Below, piece by piece: positions 7,424 to 31,830 of a DNA stretch of 32,086 bases. The DNA is from Thiotrichaceae bacterium. Lineage in GTDB: Bacteria > Pseudomonadota > Gammaproteobacteria > Thiotrichales > Thiotrichaceae. The translations under genes and the position numbers were made by a program. The DNA is taken from the NCBI GenBank assembly GCA_015486375.1, contig WFRR01000039.1, forward strand, positions 1 to 32,086. Reading direction: 5' to 3'. The notes under the pieces were generated by a model. That model was not told where the DNA came from, did not search any database, and saw only the letters and a list, made by a program, of their open reading frames with translations. The number at the start of each line of letters is the position of its first letter. Position 1 is the stretch's first letter.

Positions 7424-8338
7424 ATGACTATGCAGTGCAATTTACCTCATAAAGAAGGTGTGAGTCCTAGCTATCTTAATTTACCTAAAGGCTCATGGGA
7501 GACGATTCTCGATTTTTTAATTGAGCGTTTTCCTCATATTGATGCTTCAGTTTGGCACTATCGCCTCTCATCAGGAGGGGTGCTAATGCAGTCTGGGCAA
7601 AGCTATCGTCCTGATACCCCTTATAAGGGTGGACAGCGTTTATACTATTATCGTCAATTGGATAATGAAGCGGTTGTGCCTTTTAAGGAAAAAATTCTTT
7701 ATCAAGATGAGTATTTGATCGCAGTTGATAAGCCGCATTTTTTATCAGTCGTACCTGCAGGAAAATATCTACAACAAACTCTCTTAGTACGTTTAAAACG
7801 GGCTTTACAATTAGATACGATTAGCCCCATGCACCGTATTGATCGAGAGACAGCAGGGGTTGTGTTATTTTCTAAACAAGTAGAAATCCGTGGCATGTAT
7901 CAAAAAATGTTTCAAAATCATCAAATGCACAAAACCTATGAAGCGATTGCACCGACTTTACACGGGCTACAATATCCCCATGTACATCGCAGTCGTATCG
8001 TAAAATCTACCCCCTTTTTCTGTATGCAGGAAGTATCAGGAGAAGCTAATAGTGAAACGAAAATTGAATTAATGGAAACACAAGGAAAGTTAAGTCGTTA
8101 CTGTTTAAAGCCTATGACAGGTAAACAACATCAACTACGCGTGCATTTATCTGCTTTAGGACAAGGTATTTTAAATGATCCTTTTTATCCTGAAGTTTTG
8201 CCTGAGAAGCCACAGGGAAATTTTGATAACCCTTTACAGTTATTAGCTAAATCGATTGCTTTTACTGATCCGATTACGCATAAGGAACATTATTTTGAAA
8301 GCCAACATCAGCTTAAATTTCCTTGTTCTACACAATGA
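7424..8338 (+). CDS. RluA-family RNA pseudouridine synthase
   Basis: Converts uridine to pseudouridine in rRNA or tRNA. The catalytic motif MHRIDRETAGVVLFSK is at about 136-151 with the catalytic aspartate at Asp140. The typical preceding strand ILYQDEYLIAVDKPHFLSVVP is at about 91-111, and the late-domain motif GKQHQLRVHLSALG fits the family. The N-terminal 85 residues resemble the extended form of the RluA family with an S4-like segment. At 304 residues the length is normal. Which position is modified (for example tRNA U32 or a 23S rRNA site) cannot be read from the sequence. The start ATG lacks a good ribosome-binding site and may depend on translation of the gene ending 11 bp upstream; a second in-frame ATG lies 6 bp on. 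Its 3' end overlaps the minus-strand gene by 11 bp. Confidence 0.92.
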   Translation: MTMQCNLPHKEGVSPSYLNLPKGSWETILDFLIERFPHIDASVWHYRLSSGGVLMQSGQSYRPDTPYKGGQRLYYYRQLDNEAVVPFKEKILYQDEYLIAVDKPHFLSVVPAGKYLQQTLLVRLKRALQLDTISPMHRIDRETAGVVLFSKQVEIRGMYQKMFQNHQMHKTYEAIAPTLHGLQYPHVHRSRIVKSTPFFCMQEVSGEANSETKIELMETQGKLSRYCLKPMTGKQHQLRVHLSALGQGILNDPFYPEVLPEKPQGNFDNPLQLLAKSIAFTDPITHKEHYFESQHQLKFPCSTQ

Positions 8339-8900
8339 CGCGATTGCGTTTAATTTGAATTTGTTCAGCCAGTATATCGAGCTGATAATGAGTAATATTA
8401 TCTTCTTTAATCGTTTTAAGTAAGAAAGGCTCGGCGAACTTACCTAAGCGACCTTTTATTCTTCTACGAATTTTACCTTTATTATCGGCTAACCATTTTT
8501 TTTGTCGTCTATAACGATTCAATTTATCTTGTAGTGTTTCTTGCTGTTTTTTATAGGGGTCTAGTTGTAAAAGTAACTCTTCTAAATTCTCAAATTTCTT
8601 ACCAAACTTAGGGATAAAGTATTCATATAACTTCAAAAAATCACAAATAAACTCAGAAGATGATTGACTATCATGAATGGGTAAAGAAGTTTCACCTTTT
8701 AAAATTTGTAAACAAAACCAATAATATAAAGCAAACTGTAAATCCGTTAATACCACAGCGATCCCATTAAACTCAATTTGACGCTCATTACGGTATAAAA
8801 CAACGTTAGAACGTTGACTAAATAGTTCGATCTTATTAATGCTATCTTGAGATGTTGTACTGATGGGATATTCATAACCTTTTCGAAGGTCAATTGTCAT
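8328..8900 (-). CDS. Protein resembling the C-terminal half of NE0113-family CRISPR-associated (CARF/ring nuclease) proteins
   Basis: A 190-residue cytosolic protein. Three stretches match, by pattern, the region after the CARF domain in NE0113-family (TIGR02584/PF09623) proteins. These are VVLYRNERQIEFNGIAVVLT leading into DLQFALYYWFCL (33-64), a basic segment KGKIRRRIKGRLGKFAEPFL (141-160), and the terminal THYQLDILAEQIQI (170-183). Family members have corresponding blocks of the type L-x-F-A-x-Y-x-W-L-A, R-I-N-x-x-L-x-x-x-L-G-x-x-A-x-P-Y, and T-R-Y-x-L-x-L-x-x-x-x-I. The N-terminal Rossmann-like CARF domain is absent: only 30 residues precede the first block. I start at 8900 because AAGG is well placed and because the longer frame to 8993 would overlap the divergent gene. 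It could be a truncated relict, a stand-alone winged-helix protein, or an unrelated protein with chance similarity. Confidence 0.55.
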   Translation of the reverse strand: MTIDLRKGYEYPISTTSQDSINKIELFSQRSNVVLYRNERQIEFNGIAVVLTDLQFALYYWFCLQILKGETSLPIHDSQSSSEFICDFLKLYEYFIPKFGKKFENLEELLLQLDPYKKQQETLQDKLNRYRRQKKWLADNKGKIRRRIKGRLGKFAEPFLLKTIKEDNITHYQLDILAEQIQIKRNRVIV

Positions 8901-8964
8901 TATTTTTACCTTATGGGACGATAAGATGGCACGATATTTTTTTGAAAAATTATAAAAATCAATC

Positions 8965-10140
8965 ATGAATGATAGCAAAAAGAAACAATCCAACCAAAAT
9001 CATTTTCCTTGTTCACAGTGTGGGGCAGACTTGGAATATGCACCTGATTCAGGTGAATTACACTGTAGTTACTGTGGATACTTAAACCCAATTCCGACTT
9101 CTAATCAGCCTATTGTCGAGCATGATTTTATTAAATCCTTGCAAAAGCTAAAGGAGAGAAAACAGAATCCGAGTCAACTTCAACAAATCAATATAGTGCA
9201 TTGTCCTTCTTGTGCAGCACGATTTGAATTACACAATAATGAACATGCAGGTAATTGCCCCTTTTGTGATACTGCGGTCGTGATGGATATTCAAGATGTG
9301 CAAGTGTTTCATCCAGAATCCTTATTACCCTTTCAATTTACCGAAAAGCAAGCGACTGAAGCCTTTAAAAAATGGATTAATAGCCGCTGGTTTGCCCCTT
9401 CAGCTTTAAAAGATAAAGCCAAACGCGATGAAAAGTTACTGGGAATTTATTTACCCTATTGGACTTATGACAGTGAAACTCGTAGCGATTACACAGGCGA
9501 ACGTGGCACGATTTATTATGTACAAGAAGATTACACTGTGACCATTGAGGGGAAAACAGAACAACGTACTCGTTCCGTTGCAAAAATTCGTTGGCGATGG
9601 GTTTCAGGTAGAGTCCGCTTATCTTTTGATGATGTATTGATTGGTGCAAGCTACACTTTACCTAGAGCTATACTTGATCCTTTACAGCCATGGGATTTAG
9701 ACAATCTTAAACCCTATTCGGAAGCCTATTTAAGTGGCTTTCGGAGTGAAATTTATCAAGTTGAACTGGATGAAGGCTTTCAACGTGCGAAACAAATTAT
9801 GAATAATCGTATTCGTCGTGCAGTTAAACAAGATATTGGTGGCGATCAACAACGTATTGCACAGATCAATACACAACATTCTGATACGCGCTTTAAACAT
9901 ATTCTATTGCCCATTTGGTCAGCTGCTTTTAAGTATAAAAATAAAACTTATCGTTTTGTGGTCAATGGACGTAATGGCAAAGTACAAGGTGAACGTCCCT
10001 ATAGTGTTATAAAAATTATTGCCGCCAGTATTTTAGGCTTAAGCTTACTGGGAGCAGCAATCTATATTGCAGAAGTGACGGGCGTACTGGAGCAAGTTTT
10101 AAAAAATGCTCCCAGTGATATTCACTATCCTTACCGATAA
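8965..10140 (+). CDS. Double zinc-ribbon protein with C-terminal membrane anchor
   Basis: A 391-residue protein of the group often mislabelled as primosomal protein N' (replication factor Y); it has no helicase motifs. It has two zinc ribbons: Cys16/Cys19 with Cys34/Cys37 (CSQCG...CSYCG) and Cys80/Cys83 with Cys98/Cys101 (CPSC...CPFC). A beta-rich body follows, with the family-typical stretch LLGIYLPYWTYDSETRSDYT and a later LLPIWSAAFKYKNKTYRFVVNG. One membrane segment lies near the C-terminus (about residues 347-368, IIAASILGLSLLGAAIYIAE) with a short tail. The function is not established; relatives often sit beside SPFH/virion-core-like membrane proteins, which are not seen here. It is divergent from the 8900 gene with a 64-bp shared upstream region, and no strong ribosome-binding site is visible. 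Confidence 0.8.
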   Translation: MNDSKKKQSNQNHFPCSQCGADLEYAPDSGELHCSYCGYLNPIPTSNQPIVEHDFIKSLQKLKERKQNPSQLQQINIVHCPSCAARFELHNNEHAGNCPFCDTAVVMDIQDVQVFHPESLLPFQFTEKQATEAFKKWINSRWFAPSALKDKAKRDEKLLGIYLPYWTYDSETRSDYTGERGTIYYVQEDYTVTIEGKTEQRTRSVAKIRWRWVSGRVRLSFDDVLIGASYTLPRAILDPLQPWDLDNLKPYSEAYLSGFRSEIYQVELDEGFQRAKQIMNNRIRRAVKQDIGGDQQRIAQINTQHSDTRFKHILLPIWSAAFKYKNKTYRFVVNGRNGKVQGERPYSVIKIIAASILGLSLLGAAIYIAEVTGVLEQVLKNAPSDIHYPYR

Positions 10141-25859: not shown

Positions 25860-26807
25860 ATGGAAGCTCTAACAGATTTAAATGCTATTTTACACTCCAA
25901 ACGTGCCAATATTTATTACATTGAAAAATGCCGAGTCATGCAAAAAGATGGTCGGGTGGTTTATCTTTCAGAGGCTAAATATGAAAAACAGTACTGGAAT
26001 ATTCCTATCGCAAATACGACTGTTATTTTGTTGGGAATGGGAACATCCATTACACAAGCCGCCGTTCGTAGCCTAGCTTCGGCAGGGGTACTTATTGGTT
26101 TTAGTGGTAGTGGTGGAACACCATTAATTGCAGCTAATGAGGTGGAGTGGTTATCTCCTCAGAGTGAATATCGTCCCACAGAATATATTCAGGGCTGGAT
26201 GCAGTTCTGGTTTGATGAAAATAAACGTCTAAAAATAGCCAAACGCCTGCAACAATGTCGGATTGAATATTTAAAAACCGTTTGGGGTAAAGATCGTGAT
26301 TTACATAACTATAGCTTTTATAGTGATGATGCTGATATAGAAAATGCACTTAATCAATTTCTTTCTCGTATTAAAAATAGTCCCAATATTAATAACTTAT
26401 TATTAGTAGAAGCACAACTAACAAAATCTTTATATAAGATTTCAGCTAATCGTACCCAAATTAGTAATTTTCGACGTGATGCTAATTGTGGTGATGCAGC
26501 CAATGACTTTCTAAATCATGGTAATTATTTAGCCTATGGACTGGCGGCAACAACGCTTTGGGTACTTGGCATTCCTCATGGCTTTGCCGTAATGCATGGA
26601 AAAACAAGACGAGGGGCATTAGTTTTTGATATTGCTGATTTAATTAAAGATAGCTTAATTTTACCGTGGGCATTTATTTGTGCTGATAAAGGAATGTCTG
26701 AACAAACATTTAGGCAGCAGTGCTTACAAAATTTTACTAAACATAAAGCCCTTGATTTTATGTTCAACACGGTAAAACAGATGGCAAAAGAGGGGAAATC
26801 GCTATGA
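25860..26807 (+). CDS. cas1: Type I-F CRISPR-associated endonuclease/integrase Cas1
   Basis: Integrates new spacers at the leader end of the array together with the Cas2 part of Cas2/3. The 315 residues are of I-F type, with SKRANIYYIEKCRVMQKDGR near the N-terminus and the segment WNIPIANTTVILLGMGTSIT typical of Cas1f. Metal ligands are Glu184 (LLVEAQL), His246 (AVMHGKTR) and Asp257 with Asp260 (FDIADLIKD), all present, so it should be active. GGAAAA lies 5 bases before the ATG. The final ATGA overlaps the start of cas2/3 by 4 bp, indicating translational coupling. It is divergent from yejB, with a 117-bp shared region. Confidence 0.97.
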   Translation: MEALTDLNAILHSKRANIYYIEKCRVMQKDGRVVYLSEAKYEKQYWNIPIANTTVILLGMGTSITQAAVRSLASAGVLIGFSGSGGTPLIAANEVEWLSPQSEYRPTEYIQGWMQFWFDENKRLKIAKRLQQCRIEYLKTVWGKDRDLHNYSFYSDDADIENALNQFLSRIKNSPNINNLLLVEAQLTKSLYKISANRTQISNFRRDANCGDAANDFLNHGNYLAYGLAATTLWVLGIPHGFAVMHGKTRRGALVFDIADLIKDSLILPWAFICADKGMSEQTFRQQCLQNFTKHKALDFMFNTVKQMAKEGKSL

Positions 26808-29800
26808 TTGTTACCTTTATTTCACAATGTAAAAAAAAGTCCCTTAATAAAACACGGCGAGTATTGGATAGCTTTGCTAATCGTATTGGTAGTCGAACAT
26901 GGCAAACCATTATGACTAATGAAGGTTTGCATGCAGTCAAAAAACTATTACGAAAAACAGCCTCTAAAAATACCGCAGTTTCTTGTCATTGGATTCGCAG
27001 TCGTACCCGTATAGAACTCGTTTGGATTGTCGGTAATCGAAATCAATTTAATAGTGAAGGTTGCGTACCTGTCAATACAACCCGACAAAACATTATAAAT
27101 ACTCATTGGGAAAATAACTGGAACTACCTCCCATTGATTAAATCCTTATCTGCATTATCTGCACTCTTTCATGATTGGGGAAAGGCTTCTGAGTTTTTTC
27201 AGAGTAAATTAAAAAGTAAAAAAATTCTAGCTGATCCCTTACGGCATGAATGGATTTCAGTGCTATTTTTACAGGTTTTTGTCAATGGAGAAAATGATCA
27301 ACAGTGGTTATCTCGCTTGAGTAAGGGAGAGATTGATAGAGAACAGATTAATCTCAATATTGACAACAAAAGTGACCAGCCTTTAAAGAATCTACCGAAT
27401 GCTGCTAGTTTAGTGGCTTGGCTCATTGTGACTCATCATCGTTTACCTTTACCGATAAAGGAAGAAGCAAGAAGATATAAAACAATCCCTGTTGATGCTT
27501 TTCAAACGCTTTTAGGGGTGATCGATTCAGAGTGGGGCTATGAAAACAAAAAAGCAAAACAGGAACTTAAACGCTGCTTTGACTATCCCGTATTACCGAG
27601 TGAATCCCGTCCTTGGCTAAAGCAAATTAAGAAATGGTCGAATAGATTATATGATAACTTATCTTTATTAAATCAGTCGCTTAATGATGGTAGTTGGAGA
27701 GTCGTTCTGCATCATGCACGCTTAAGTTTAATGTTAGCCGATCATCATTATTCTTCGCTTGATAGAGATATGAACTGGCAAAGCCCGTTAAAATTTTATG
27801 CCAATACTGATCGAAAAACTGGAAAACTAAAACAGCAGCTAGATGAACATCTTGTTGGGGTTATGAAAAAATCTTTAAAAATCGCCCATTTATTACCTAT
27901 GTTTGAAGGCAGTTCGACTGAATTATTTCCCCGAGCTTATGATGTTAAAGCCCTAAAACGCAAAAGCACTAACACAGATTTTCGGTGGCAAGATACTGCT
28001 GTTAGTCAAATCATAAAATGGCGGAATCAAGGTGATCTAAAACAATCACAGGATCATTTTGGCTTTTTTGCAATTAATATGGCAAGCACGGGAAAAGGAA
28101 AAACGTTTGCTAATGCTAAAATCATGCGTTCCTTGTCATCAGATAAGAATAGTTTACGATATATTTTAGCATTAGGATTAAGAACCTTAACGCTACAAAC
28201 AGGCGATGAATATCGAGATCGTATTGGTTTGGATGAAACCGAACTTGCTGTATTAATTGGTTCTAAGGCTGTACTAGACTTACACAACCGCAATAAAACT
28301 CAAGGGAAATATCCATTAGATGCTAAAGATAATGAGGACTTTGGTTCAGAGTCACTAGAGAATTTACTAGACAATGAAATTGATTACGAATCAAACTTAC
28401 CCGAGGATATTTTAGCCACGATTTTTAATACTCCACAGGGAAAGAAGAATCGTAAATTTCTGTATGCACCTGTTCTAACTTGTACGATTGACCACCTAAT
28501 CGCAGCCACAGAAACAAAACGGGGAGGACGTTATATCTTACCTTGTCTGCGTTTGATGTCATCTGATCTTGTCATTGATGAAATTGATAATTTCGAGGGC
28601 AGTGATTTAGTTGCCATTGGTCGTTTAATTCATTTAGCCGGTATGCTAGGGCGGAAAGTAATGATTTCATCTGCCACAATTTCCCCTGATTTAGCAGAAG
28701 GCTATTTCAATGCCTATCAGTCTGGTTGGTCACTATTTGCCAATAGTAGAAATATGAGTCAGGCACTGACTTGTATTTGGGTAGATGAATTTGTGACTCA
28801 TATTGATGATATTAATACTAATCTGGAAGAAAATAGACGCATTCGTTTTAAAGAAAGACACCAAGCCTTTATTCACAAACGAGTAGGAAATTTAGCTAAG
28901 CTAAAAGCTAAACGCAAAGCAAAATTACTTAACTGTCAAAATTTATTAAAATTACCTGAAAGTGATATAGAAAATCAGTATTATCAAACAATTAAAACTG
29001 AAATTATTTCTCAGCATGAGCAGCATTATTCCGTTGAGCAGCAATCAAAGAAACAAGTTTCATTTGGAGTTGTTCGGGTTGCCAATATTAAACCCTGTAT
29101 TCATCTAACCGAATATTTAGCTGAAAGTTATTGGTCTGATGAGATTGAAATAAAGGTGATGGCTTATCACAGTCAACAAGCTTTACTGATGCGAAGTTAT
29201 CAAGAAAATCATCTAGATTCAGTATTAAAGCGCGACAATAATCACACTCAAGCTATTTTTGAAAATGCCGTGATTAGAAACCATCTTGAGCAATGCCAAC
29301 ATAAAAATCTGATTTTTATTTTAGTGACAACCCCTGTTGAAGAGGTCGGCCGTGATCATGATTTTGATTGGGCTATTATTGAACCCTCTTCATTTCGATC
29401 TATTATTCAGCTATCAGGTCGTGTATTAAGACATCGTGATATATATCCTCAATATGCCAATATTGCTTTACTCCAATATAATTTAAAATCATTGACTCAA
29501 AAAAATAATAAGGCGACTTATTGTCAGCCGGGTTATGAAACTCAGGAAAATTTGCTGGATTCCCATGATCTTAATCAATTAGTTAATTTTTCAAAGCTAA
29601 TAAAGCGAATCGATGCACAACCCCGTATTCAACGAAAGTCACGGCTAAATCCTCAAAAAAGGTTAAGTGATTTAGAACATTACTCTATTCAACAACTGCT
29701 TACAGACTATGAAAATCAAGGTGCTGTCAATTTACAAGGATATTTATCAGGCTGTTGGTGGATGACTGCTTTACCACAATGCTTTAATGCTTTTCGAGAA

Positions 29801-30133
29801 GGAAGCAAACAGCACCCCATTTACCTGATGCCTGAACTTGCAGATGAAACCTATAGCTATGTGGAAAAAGTGTATGAAAAAGGAAAAATGCTAATGCCGC
29901 CACCACAAACACTTTATAAAATACATAAAAAAACACTGTCAAAACAACAGCAAAGCCGATTATGGCTACCGCGAGACTATTTGAAATTATTAAAAGAAAT
30001 CGCCGTATTTAAAGGAATGGATATACAATATGCCGCATTATTGTATGGTGAATTAATATTGCCTAGCTATGGAAAAGATGCAATCAGTGTTGAATTTACT
30101 TACAATGAACAACTGGGTTTGACTAAATATTAA
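26804..30133 (+). CDS. cas3: Type I-F Cas2/Cas3 fusion (helicase-nuclease)
   Basis: The I-F hallmark fusion; it takes part in spacer integration and degrades target DNA. Of 1109 residues, 1-95 are Cas2 (MIVTFISQCKKKSLNKTRRV start). An HD nuclease domain follows with His123-Asp124 (LFHDWGKASEF), His148 (HEWIS), His211-His212 (THHRLPLP) and Asp313-His314. The SF2 helicase has Walker A MASTGKGKTFAN (427-437, Lys433), a DExD-type motif VIDEIDNF (590-597), motif III SSATIS (622-627) and motif VI QLSGRVLRHR. A C-terminal domain of about 200 residues ends the chain. The length matches known I-F proteins, and no motif is lost. Next to it stands the CRISPR leader directly; no csy1-csy4 genes follow. 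Confidence 0.96.
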   Translation: MIVTFISQCKKKSLNKTRRVLDSFANRIGSRTWQTIMTNEGLHAVKKLLRKTASKNTAVSCHWIRSRTRIELVWIVGNRNQFNSEGCVPVNTTRQNIINTHWENNWNYLPLIKSLSALSALFHDWGKASEFFQSKLKSKKILADPLRHEWISVLFLQVFVNGENDQQWLSRLSKGEIDREQINLNIDNKSDQPLKNLPNAASLVAWLIVTHHRLPLPIKEEARRYKTIPVDAFQTLLGVIDSEWGYENKKAKQELKRCFDYPVLPSESRPWLKQIKKWSNRLYDNLSLLNQSLNDGSWRVVLHHARLSLMLADHHYSSLDRDMNWQSPLKFYANTDRKTGKLKQQLDEHLVGVMKKSLKIAHLLPMFEGSSTELFPRAYDVKALKRKSTNTDFRWQDTAVSQIIKWRNQGDLKQSQDHFGFFAINMASTGKGKTFANAKIMRSLSSDKNSLRYILALGLRTLTLQTGDEYRDRIGLDETELAVLIGSKAVLDLHNRNKTQGKYPLDAKDNEDFGSESLENLLDNEIDYESNLPEDILATIFNTPQGKKNRKFLYAPVLTCTIDHLIAATETKRGGRYILPCLRLMSSDLVIDEIDNFEGSDLVAIGRLIHLAGMLGRKVMISSATISPDLAEGYFNAYQSGWSLFANSRNMSQALTCIWVDEFVTHIDDINTNLEENRRIRFKERHQAFIHKRVGNLAKLKAKRKAKLLNCQNLLKLPESDIENQYYQTIKTEIISQHEQHYSVEQQSKKQVSFGVVRVANIKPCIHLTEYLAESYWSDEIEIKVMAYHSQQALLMRSYQENHLDSVLKRDNNHTQAIFENAVIRNHLEQCQHKNLIFILVTTPVEEVGRDHDFDWAIIEPSSFRSIIQLSGRVLRHRDIYPQYANIALLQYNLKSLTQKNNKATYCQPGYETQENLLDSHDLNQLVNFSKLIKRIDAQPRIQRKSRLNPQKRLSDLEHYSIQQLLTDYENQGAVNLQGYLSGCWWMTALPQCFNAFREGSKQHPIYLMPELADETYSYVEKVYEKGKMLMPPPQTLYKIHKKTLSKQQQSRLWLPRDYLKLLKEIAVFKGMDIQYAALLYGELILPSYGKDAISVEFTYNEQLGLTKY

Positions 30134-30196
30134 TCAATGTACTTAATTATTAGTGATTTTAACCAATGAAAATACGTATAAAAATATTAACTTTTA

Positions 30197-30209
30197 AATC
30201 AATTACTTA
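30197..30209 (+). promoter_or_regulatory. IHF-like binding site in the leader
   Basis: AATCAATTACTTA fits the IHF consensus WATCAA-N4-TTR at every defined position. It ends 83 bp before the first repeat. IHF is known to assist I-F and I-E spacer integration by bending the leader. The gene for IHF is not in the window. Confidence 0.5.
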
Positions 30210-30258
30210 CAGGTGGGTAATTTTTGATTCCTAAAATACTCAAAATAAAGGTAGTTGC

Positions 30259-30288
30259 TTGTTATCTCTAAATATTCCTTGTTATAAT
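30259..30288 (+). promoter_or_regulatory. Probable promoter for pre-crRNA
   Basis: -35-like TTGTTA (30259-30264), 18-base spacer, perfect -10 TATAAT (30283-30288). Transcription would begin near 30294-30296, within the first bases of repeat 1 and just before its hairpin. Confidence 0.55.
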
Positions 30289-30292
30289 TGCT

Positions 30293-31823
30293 ATTCACTG
30301 CCGAGTAGGCAGCTTAGAAAAATTCTCCTGCTACTTTTGCGGCTACTGTTAATATTCACTGCCGAGTAGGCAGCTTAGAAAACAAAGAGAAGGGAAACTC
30401 CCTGTCACATGGATATTCACTGCCGAGTAGGCAGCTTAGAAATTCTGAGAAATTACACCTCAATAAAAAATCAGATTCACTGCCGAGTAGGCAGCTTAGA
30501 AATTGCTGGTTAACCCTTTCTGTTATCGCATCAAATTCACTGCCGAGTAGGCAGCTTAGAAAGATCTTCGTCTTAGAATGTGCTTCTTTCAGTGATTCAC
30601 TGCCGAGTAGGCAGCTTAGAAATGCAAGCGCAATCGATGCCGCATATTGTTTGAATTCACTGCCGAGTAGGCAGCTTAGAAAACGCGAAAGTGTAGGTTG
30701 CCCCAATTTGCCTTATTCACTGCCGAGTAGGCAGCTTAGAAAGTACTGGATGATCATCCCGCAATGTATTTAGGATTCACTGCCGAGTAGGCAGCTTAGA
30801 AATGCATAAGTGTTATTAGTACGCAACACCCGCCATTCACTGCCGAGTAGGCAGCTTAGAAATCATGATTCGGTAACTCTTTCACTTTATGCACATTCAC
30901 TGCCGAGTAGGCAGCTTAGAAAACTACGCATGTCTTATAATCCATGTTCGATACATTCACTGCCGAGTAGGCAGCTTAGAAAACAAACAAGCATTCCTAA
31001 GTTTGCTGTAAAACATTCACTGCCGAGTAGGCAGCTTAGAAATGATTGGTATGCAGCATCCATTTCTTTTAATGATTCACTGCCGAGTAGGCAGCTTAGA
31101 AAATTCGATCAGGAGCGGTAAACAACCACTCCATATTCACTGCCGAGTAGGCAGCTTAGGAAATCAGTAAAATTGATCAACAGATGAAAACAGCATTCAC
31201 TGCCGAGTAGGCAGCTTAGAAATGATTATTCAATGTGTAATAGCCGCAAATGCAATTCACTGCCGAGTAGGCAGCTTAGAAAAACAGAGATTGATGATGA
31301 CGATTGTGAAGTTTATTCACTGCCGAGTAGGCAGCTTAGAAAATTCCTGTGCAAAAGTAAGGAGTAATATCTTTATTCACTGCCGAGTAGGCAGCTTAGA
31401 AATGTGGTGGATTTGGATGATCTGCTATTGCTTGTATTCACTGCCGAGTAGGCAGCTTAGAAATCACTAACGGCGTAAGCAATCAAGGTAAAGCCATTCA
31501 CTGCCGAGTAGGCAGCTTAGAAATGTCAATAAATGCACGATTATCCACGGCACTCATTCACTGCCGAGTAGGCAGCTTAGAAATCATTATTTTCATCTGG
31601 AACACAAGTGCATTCATTCACTGCCGAGTAGGCAGCTTAGAAATGTACTTTTTGTCCACATATTATTGGAATACCATTCACTGCCGAGTAGGCAGCTTAG
31701 AAAAATACCAAGCTTTTGCACCTGTAATCGCTAGTATTCACTGCCGAGTAGGCAGCTTAGAAAAAAGCATTAATGATGCCTATCACGCTACGATCATTCA
31801 CTGCCAAGTAGGCAGCTTAGAAA
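30293..31823 (+). CRISPR. Type I-F CRISPR array, 26 repeats and 25 spacers
   Basis: The 28-bp repeat begins ATTCACTGCC and ends GCAGCTTAGAAA. It contains the I-F hairpin CTGCC-GAGTA-GGCAG (repeat positions 6-20), so a Cas6f/Csy4 cut after position 20 would leave the 8-base handle CTTAGAAA. Repeats start at 30293, 30354, 30415, then every 60 bp to 31375, then 31436 and every 60 bp to 31796. Spacers are 32 bp except numbers 1, 2 and 19 (33 bp). Twenty-four repeats look identical. Repeat 15 (31135) has A to G at position 26, and the last (31796) has G to A at position 11, in the hairpin loop. No spacer occurs twice by eye. Transcription runs left to right from the cas side. Confidence 0.98.
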
Positions 31824-31830
31824 ACCGACA

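Follow-up and report, generated by a model that had tools for sequence, protein, structure and literature searches.

Introduction

Proteins of the NE0113 (CARF5) family are common beside type III CRISPR systems, and the two models by which they are recognised, PF09623 (208 positions) and TIGR02584 (209 positions), both end just past the CARF domain. According to a passage of PMC4012209, NE0113 proteins have no C-terminal effector domain, and direct control of transcription is predicted for them. Literature searches on CARF, OmpR and type III CRISPR together, and on the name TIGR02584, found no paper.

Here we describe P0002, a protein of 190 residues that corresponds to the part of NE0113 proteins lying beyond the CARF domain. 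A described protein to which it may be likened is Csa3, a CARF-HTH transcription factor, in which, according to a passage of PMC9704534, a helix-turn-helix domain linked to a CARF domain regulates genes; in contrast to P0002, Csa3 has retained the CARF domain and is responsive to cA4, and the likeness is drawn from this description and not from sequence.

The P0002 gene and its neighbourhood

The window analysed, that is the whole stretch of 32,086 nucleotides, is contig C39 (WFRR01000039.1) of a Thiotrichaceae bacterium genome of 2.67 Mb in 175 contigs (GCA_015486375.1). The coding sequence of P0002 occupies 8331-8900 of the minus strand, with an ATG at 8900 and a stop codon at 8330-8328. The gene and the sites proposed upstream of it are as follows:

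8328-8900, minus strand: stand-alone gene for a C-terminal half (P0002, 190 aa), from the ORF, profile matches and codon statistics
8949-8978, minus strand: promoter-like site TTGCTA-18-TATAAT for the P0002 gene, from a consensus match only (10/12)
8910-8925, no strand: inverted repeat CTTAT-N6-ATAAG between the promoter-like site and the P0002 start codon, from the sequence

Its open length, position-specific GC and codon use show that the frame is a real coding gene: it is open for 190 codons, for which the chance at its composition is about 1e-7, its GC content is 0.43, 0.27 and 0.25 at the first, second and third codon positions, and its codon usage resembles that of the neighbouring genes. 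The plus strand of 8328-8900 contains many stops. An AAGG located 8 nt 5' of the ATG gives the gene a good start context. The match to a promoter is weak, since five such sites were observed in the scan and 3.8 were expected from shuffles. The inverted repeat is a possible operator, if it does not occur by chance; it was found a single time in the window, and neither of the contigs with type III genes (L063 and L099) contains it, so that it gives no support to a regulon.

The P0002 gene is convergent with an RluA-type pseudouridine synthase gene (7424-8338), their ends overlapping by 11 bases, and divergent from a zinc-ribbon gene (8965-10140). The latter has a conserved counterpart in 33 of 57 genomes, conservation in the full-length matches listed running from about residue 3-10 onward. 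The surroundings consist of TerB-like, RluA-like, Zn-ribbon, HolC, PepA and DapE genes. No CRISPR genes were found among these neighbours, so that P0002 is not encoded in a type III CRISPR locus, and its gene lies away from the contigs bearing type III genes.

Further along the window (25860-31826) we observed type I-F Cas1 and Cas3f genes followed by a CRISPR array with a 60-bp spacing and at least 26 copies. The best PADLOC match of this Cas1 was the variant Cas1fv, and Cas6f/Csy4, looked for in the whole genome, was not found; it is possible that the type I-F interference genes are absent, or that they belong to a variant.

Homology to the C-terminal half of NE0113 proteins

The sequence-only reading had taken 8328-8900 for the C-terminal half of an NE0113-family CARF protein without its CARF domain, and profile comparisons bore this out. 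A profile built from 29 NE0113 proteins of the same bacterial family scored 51.3 bits across its positions 233-382 (of 384), the highest score among 5000 shuffled sequences being 11.4 bits. In an independent public model, the full-length PADLOC model PDLC01904 (CARF5--CARF), the match to P0002 extended from position 212 to position 350 (of 351), with an E-value of 9e-13. By these alignments, P0002 is homologous to the complete C-terminal half of the NE0113/CARF5 proteins. Pfam and NCBIfam gave no convincing family match, and neither PF09623 nor TIGR02584 was matched at E-values up to 1, showing no CARF (Rossmann) domain in the protein and hence no domain for binding cyclic oligoadenylate. A match to PF09623 had been proposed as a check on the homology; it was not obtained, yet this is uninformative because the model stops just past the CARF domain, and even on the full-length NE0113 protein of this genome TIGR02584 covered residues 17-221 of 389. 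The claim that no upstream frame restores the sensor was also correct, as only 64 bp separate the P0002 gene from the divergent gene at 8965 and no CARF domain is found there.

When genome contigs were scanned with profile A4, three loci were found, L096 (MAG S144_19), L097 (MAG S141_38) and L098 (HyVt-493), of which L096 (29.6% over 169 aa) and L098 were the nearest to P0002. Scans with the single P0002 sequence detected no relative in genome contigs, viral contigs, plasmids, phages or PDB sequences; likewise, no match was obtained in PDB sequences with profile A3, nor in viral sequences with profile A4 or with a full-length NE0113 family protein. The segments of P0002, all encoded on the minus strand, were assigned as follows:

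8847-8900, minus strand: residues 1-18, remnant of the CARF/C-terminal linker (MTIDLRKG... against IPFVRLREG... in the family), from alignments
8700-8810, minus strand: residues 31-67, predicted three-strand sheet and first helix of the winged helix, the best conserved part, from model secondary structure, alignment and hhalign
8508-8552, minus strand: about residues 117-131, insertion of 15 residues absent from L096 and L097, from alignment
8433-8519, minus strand: residues 128-156, expected recognition helix, net charge +12, from profile and hhalign alignment
8349-8420, minus strand: residues 161-184, C-terminal strands at the position of the wing hairpin, family G-x-R-P motif lost, from model and alignment

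P0002 begins in the linker, a few residues from the conserved LR-x-G motif that ends the CARF part, and finishes about six residues beyond the usual C-terminus of the family, indicating that both ends of the module have been kept. An Arg that is invariant in the family (column frequency 1.0) is retained in the linker remnant. P0002 therefore shares the whole C-terminal half with the family defined by PF09623, TIGR02584 and PDLC01904, but differs from it in having no CARF sensor, in lying outside a type III locus, in the replacement of the GxRP and RKS motifs and in the 15-residue insertion.

Predicted fold

Structure prediction, which had also been proposed as a check, pointed to a winged helix, more clearly for a relative than for P0002 itself. 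The AlphaFold2 model of the C-terminal half of L096, made from an alignment of four rows, had a pLDDT of 78.9 and a pTM of 0.73, and showed in order a helix, three strands, a helix, further helices, a long helix and a hairpin. All 50 of the neighbours listed for it by VIA-align were of the OmpR/PhoB type, CadC and ToxR included (Z 7.2-9.8), and its best Foldseek matches were BaeR and OmpR domains, with a best E-value of 0.019 and none below 0.001. The model of P0002 itself was of low confidence (pLDDT 57); its 25 top rows were of the OmpR/PhoB type over residues 31-184 (Z 5.1-7.8), the first unrelated row having a Z of 4.9, and its best Foldseek E-value was 0.39, again with none below 0.001.

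A profile of 51 C-terminal halves was compared by hhalign with the eight OmpR-type domains of the same genome, giving a score of 33.0, a probability of 69.5 and an E-value of 4e-5 for this one comparison, with only 33 aligned columns in the default run. None of 200 column permutations reached this score (maximum 22.5), the reversed profile gave 11.5, and omission of P0002 left a score of 31.6. With the option -glob 0 the result was lower (score 23.4, probability 22.5). The models and the profile comparison together predict that the C-terminal half of NE0113 proteins is a winged helix of the OmpR/PhoB type.

With the winged helices of this type (PF00486; BaeR, PhoP, CadC, ToxR) P0002 shares a predicted topology of sheet, helix, recognition helix and hairpin. 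In contrast to them, it has neither a receiver nor a membrane domain, only about 30 residues preceding the winged helix, it does not match the PF00486 profile at E-values up to 1, and an additional segment separates its helix 1 from the recognition helix.

Distribution and origin

Using P0002 as the query, 2 of 57 relatives gave a match, namely the genome itself and G020, and nothing was found in either congener. With the C-terminal profile A2, matches were obtained in 24 of 63 genomes of the order (31 places), in 31 of 369 of the class (35 places) and in 22 of 398 of the phylum (28 places), these three sets overlapping. Among the 63 family and order genomes, the number with a C-terminal half equalled the number with PF09623 (24/63 each). 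The other short frames were a relict of 227 aa in G136, described further on, two frames of a split gene in G074, and pieces at contig ends in G020 and G032, and the C-terminal pieces in G564, G508, G575 and G664 were small or stop-bearing; no second intact stand-alone copy was detected in the 63, 369 and 398 genomes. P0002 is so far known from one genome of one species. Accordingly, of the suggestion that a winged-helix module exists on its own in this lineage, the winged helix stood as a prediction and the lineage-wide occurrence did not, given its absence from the two congeners and the lack of a second intact copy.

In the single-contig genome G074 (L026, G074:C1:1817660-1821133), the CARF half and the C-terminal half lie in two different frames, owing to a frameshift or to a sequencing error. 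In G186:C1, G197:C1 and G415:C338 (L035, L041 and L057), NE0113 C-terminal halves lie in frames of at least 700 aa, about twice the usual length, which are possible fusions.

In a tree of the 51 C-terminal domains, P0002 grouped with L006 and L044, which lie on the same contigs as L096 (MAG S144_19) and L097 (MAG S141_38), respectively, with a support of 100/99. Its end branch was the longest of the tree (3.44, against a median of 0.46). A tree test rejected a descent of P0002, through duplication and truncation, from the full-length NE0113 protein encoded elsewhere in its genome (AU p 0.0035, to be taken with caution in view of the long branches). A sister relation of P0002 with L006 alone was not firm, as the grouping of L006 and L044 without P0002 was not rejected (p 0.30). 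The grouping and the rejection suggest that P0002 derives from another NE0113 branch and is not a fresh truncated copy.

The NE0113 gene of MAG S141_38 (L097:3740-4480, WFXF01000020.1) belongs to the same branch as P0002, and it too has an open C-terminal half without an intact CARF domain. It differs from P0002 in that it is located in a Cmr locus, with a CRISPR array on one side and a cmr1-like gene on the other, and in that its CARF part bears scars, the frame being broken early and a large internal piece deleted, from which it is clearly a relict. We considered it as a convergent loss of the sensor that would support function, and dropped this because the frame break precedes the deletion. 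These scars indicate that relicts do arise in the branch of P0002, and broken NE0113 copies were also found in G564, G508 and G426. P0002 might likewise be the remnant of a second type III locus, the CARF part having gone with the locus and the leftover half being functionless and not yet destroyed, a history with which its absence from the congeners and the loss of most family-conserved surface residues would agree. We regard it as unlikely, in view of the normal codon use of its 190 open codons, the good start context, the clean domain boundaries at both ends and the state of the hydrophobic core.

Signs of selection in the P0002 sequence

Of 44 columns that are hydrophobic in the family, 41 remain so in P0002. 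At the hydrophobic sites substituted with respect to L006, 18 of 19 residues were still hydrophobic, compared with 5 of 20 in other columns (Fisher p 1e-5). In a neutral simulation from the L096 DNA (2000 runs with point changes only, frameshifts not being counted), about half of the changed hydrophobic sites stayed hydrophobic, and at 80% identity only 4.9% of the runs were still without a stop. Compared with this simulation, the core hydrophobicity and the open frame indicate that most of the divergence took place under selection for a folded protein. This selection does not date the loss of the CARF domain; if the loss was recent, it was the full-length ancestor that was selected.

The surface has changed much more. 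P0002 keeps 18 of 57 strongly conserved columns, whereas L006 keeps 34, and it has lost an Arg that 98% of family members share, the serine of the RKS motif and the GxRP motif. In turn, the charge of its recognition helix is the highest of the 51 members (median +3). With its core kept and its surface remodelled, P0002 looks more like a protein whose binding role has changed than like one that has simply decayed.

Winged helices bind both DNA and RNA, and the basic helix could hold either one without sequence preference, P0002 then being a nucleic-acid binder rather than a transcription regulator, for example in RNA metabolism in relation to the neighbouring pseudouridine synthase. The charge of the helix and the identity of the neighbour would fit this role, which we nevertheless find quite improbable: the RluA-type gene is convergent and belongs to a separate operon, and its synteny with P0002 is not conserved, since in the congener G001 the corresponding RluA-type gene is followed by another gene and not by P0002.

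Type III system in the same genome

It had been stated that the only CRISPR system visible was type I-F, which is right for the window and wrong for the genome. The genome contains one PF09623 protein, the full-length NE0113 of 389 aa, encoded on contig C167, where its neighbours are Cas6 and the beginning of a Cmr1-like gene. Contig C94 carries a gene for Cas10/Cmr2, in which a GGDD motif is present, together with Cmr3, a Cmr6-like protein and other frames of Cmr type; it also encodes a CARF-HEPN protein of the Csx1 type, in whose sequence a HEPN-like RxxxxH is seen. Judging from these genes, a type III-B system capable of producing cyclic oligoadenylate (cOA) coexists with the P0002 gene in the same genome. 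Contigs C167 and C94 both end in cmr1-like pieces (L063:18380-19474 and L099:10310-11014) that have a stretch in common, similar and not identical, either because there are two copies or because the assembly contains strain variation.

With a GGDD Cas10, Csx1 and a full-length NE0113 encoded in the same genome, P0002 might act in trans in cyclic-oligoadenylate signalling, pairing or competing with the full-length protein. This is very improbable, because the two proteins belong to different NE0113 branches, their common grouping being rejected with the caution given above, their pairwise similarity is weak (BLASTP E-value 0.023), their recognition helices differ, and the P0002 gene is distant from the type III contigs.

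Discussion

The sequence-only reading had left undecided whether P0002 is a relict or a functional module; the preserved hydrophobic core and the open frame favour function, an old relict remaining as the main rival. P0002 is probably functional, and it probably binds DNA without ligand control. As an explanation of its origin we consider it probable, if only just, that P0002 is a domesticated, sensor-less offshoot of CARF5/NE0113 proteins. Against this, the long end branch and the low number of conserved columns retained would also fit relaxed selection, and the divergence could mostly predate the loss of the CARF domain.

According to the domesticated-offshoot reading, an ancestor from the NE0113 branch seen in MAGs S144_19 and HyVt-493 would have lost its CARF domain at the linker, and the leftover OmpR/PhoB-type winged helix would have become a small solitary protein beside housekeeping genes. 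The fold would have been kept and the insertion acquired, the recognition helix would have turned very basic, and the surface motifs of the family would have been lost. P0002 would then bind DNA without awaiting cyclic oligoadenylate, serving constitutively as a local regulator or else as a nucleoid-type binder; DNA binding, a regulatory role and independence from the ligand would be the most likely properties of such a protein. The full picture, in which the OmpR-like winged helix of CARF5, cut off from its sensor, now serves as a lone constitutive DNA-binding regulator outside CRISPR loci, in a genome that makes the messenger and has a separate full-length CARF5, is put forward tentatively, as plausible rather than probable.

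The name 'ring nuclease Csm6' is silent on the second half of NE0113 proteins. The assignment of this half to the OmpR/PhoB type makes the old prediction of direct transcriptional control testable, and the P0002 gene supplies the C-terminal domain already detached from its sensor. Beyond P0002 itself, the broader gain is a predicted fold for the second half of the NE0113 family.
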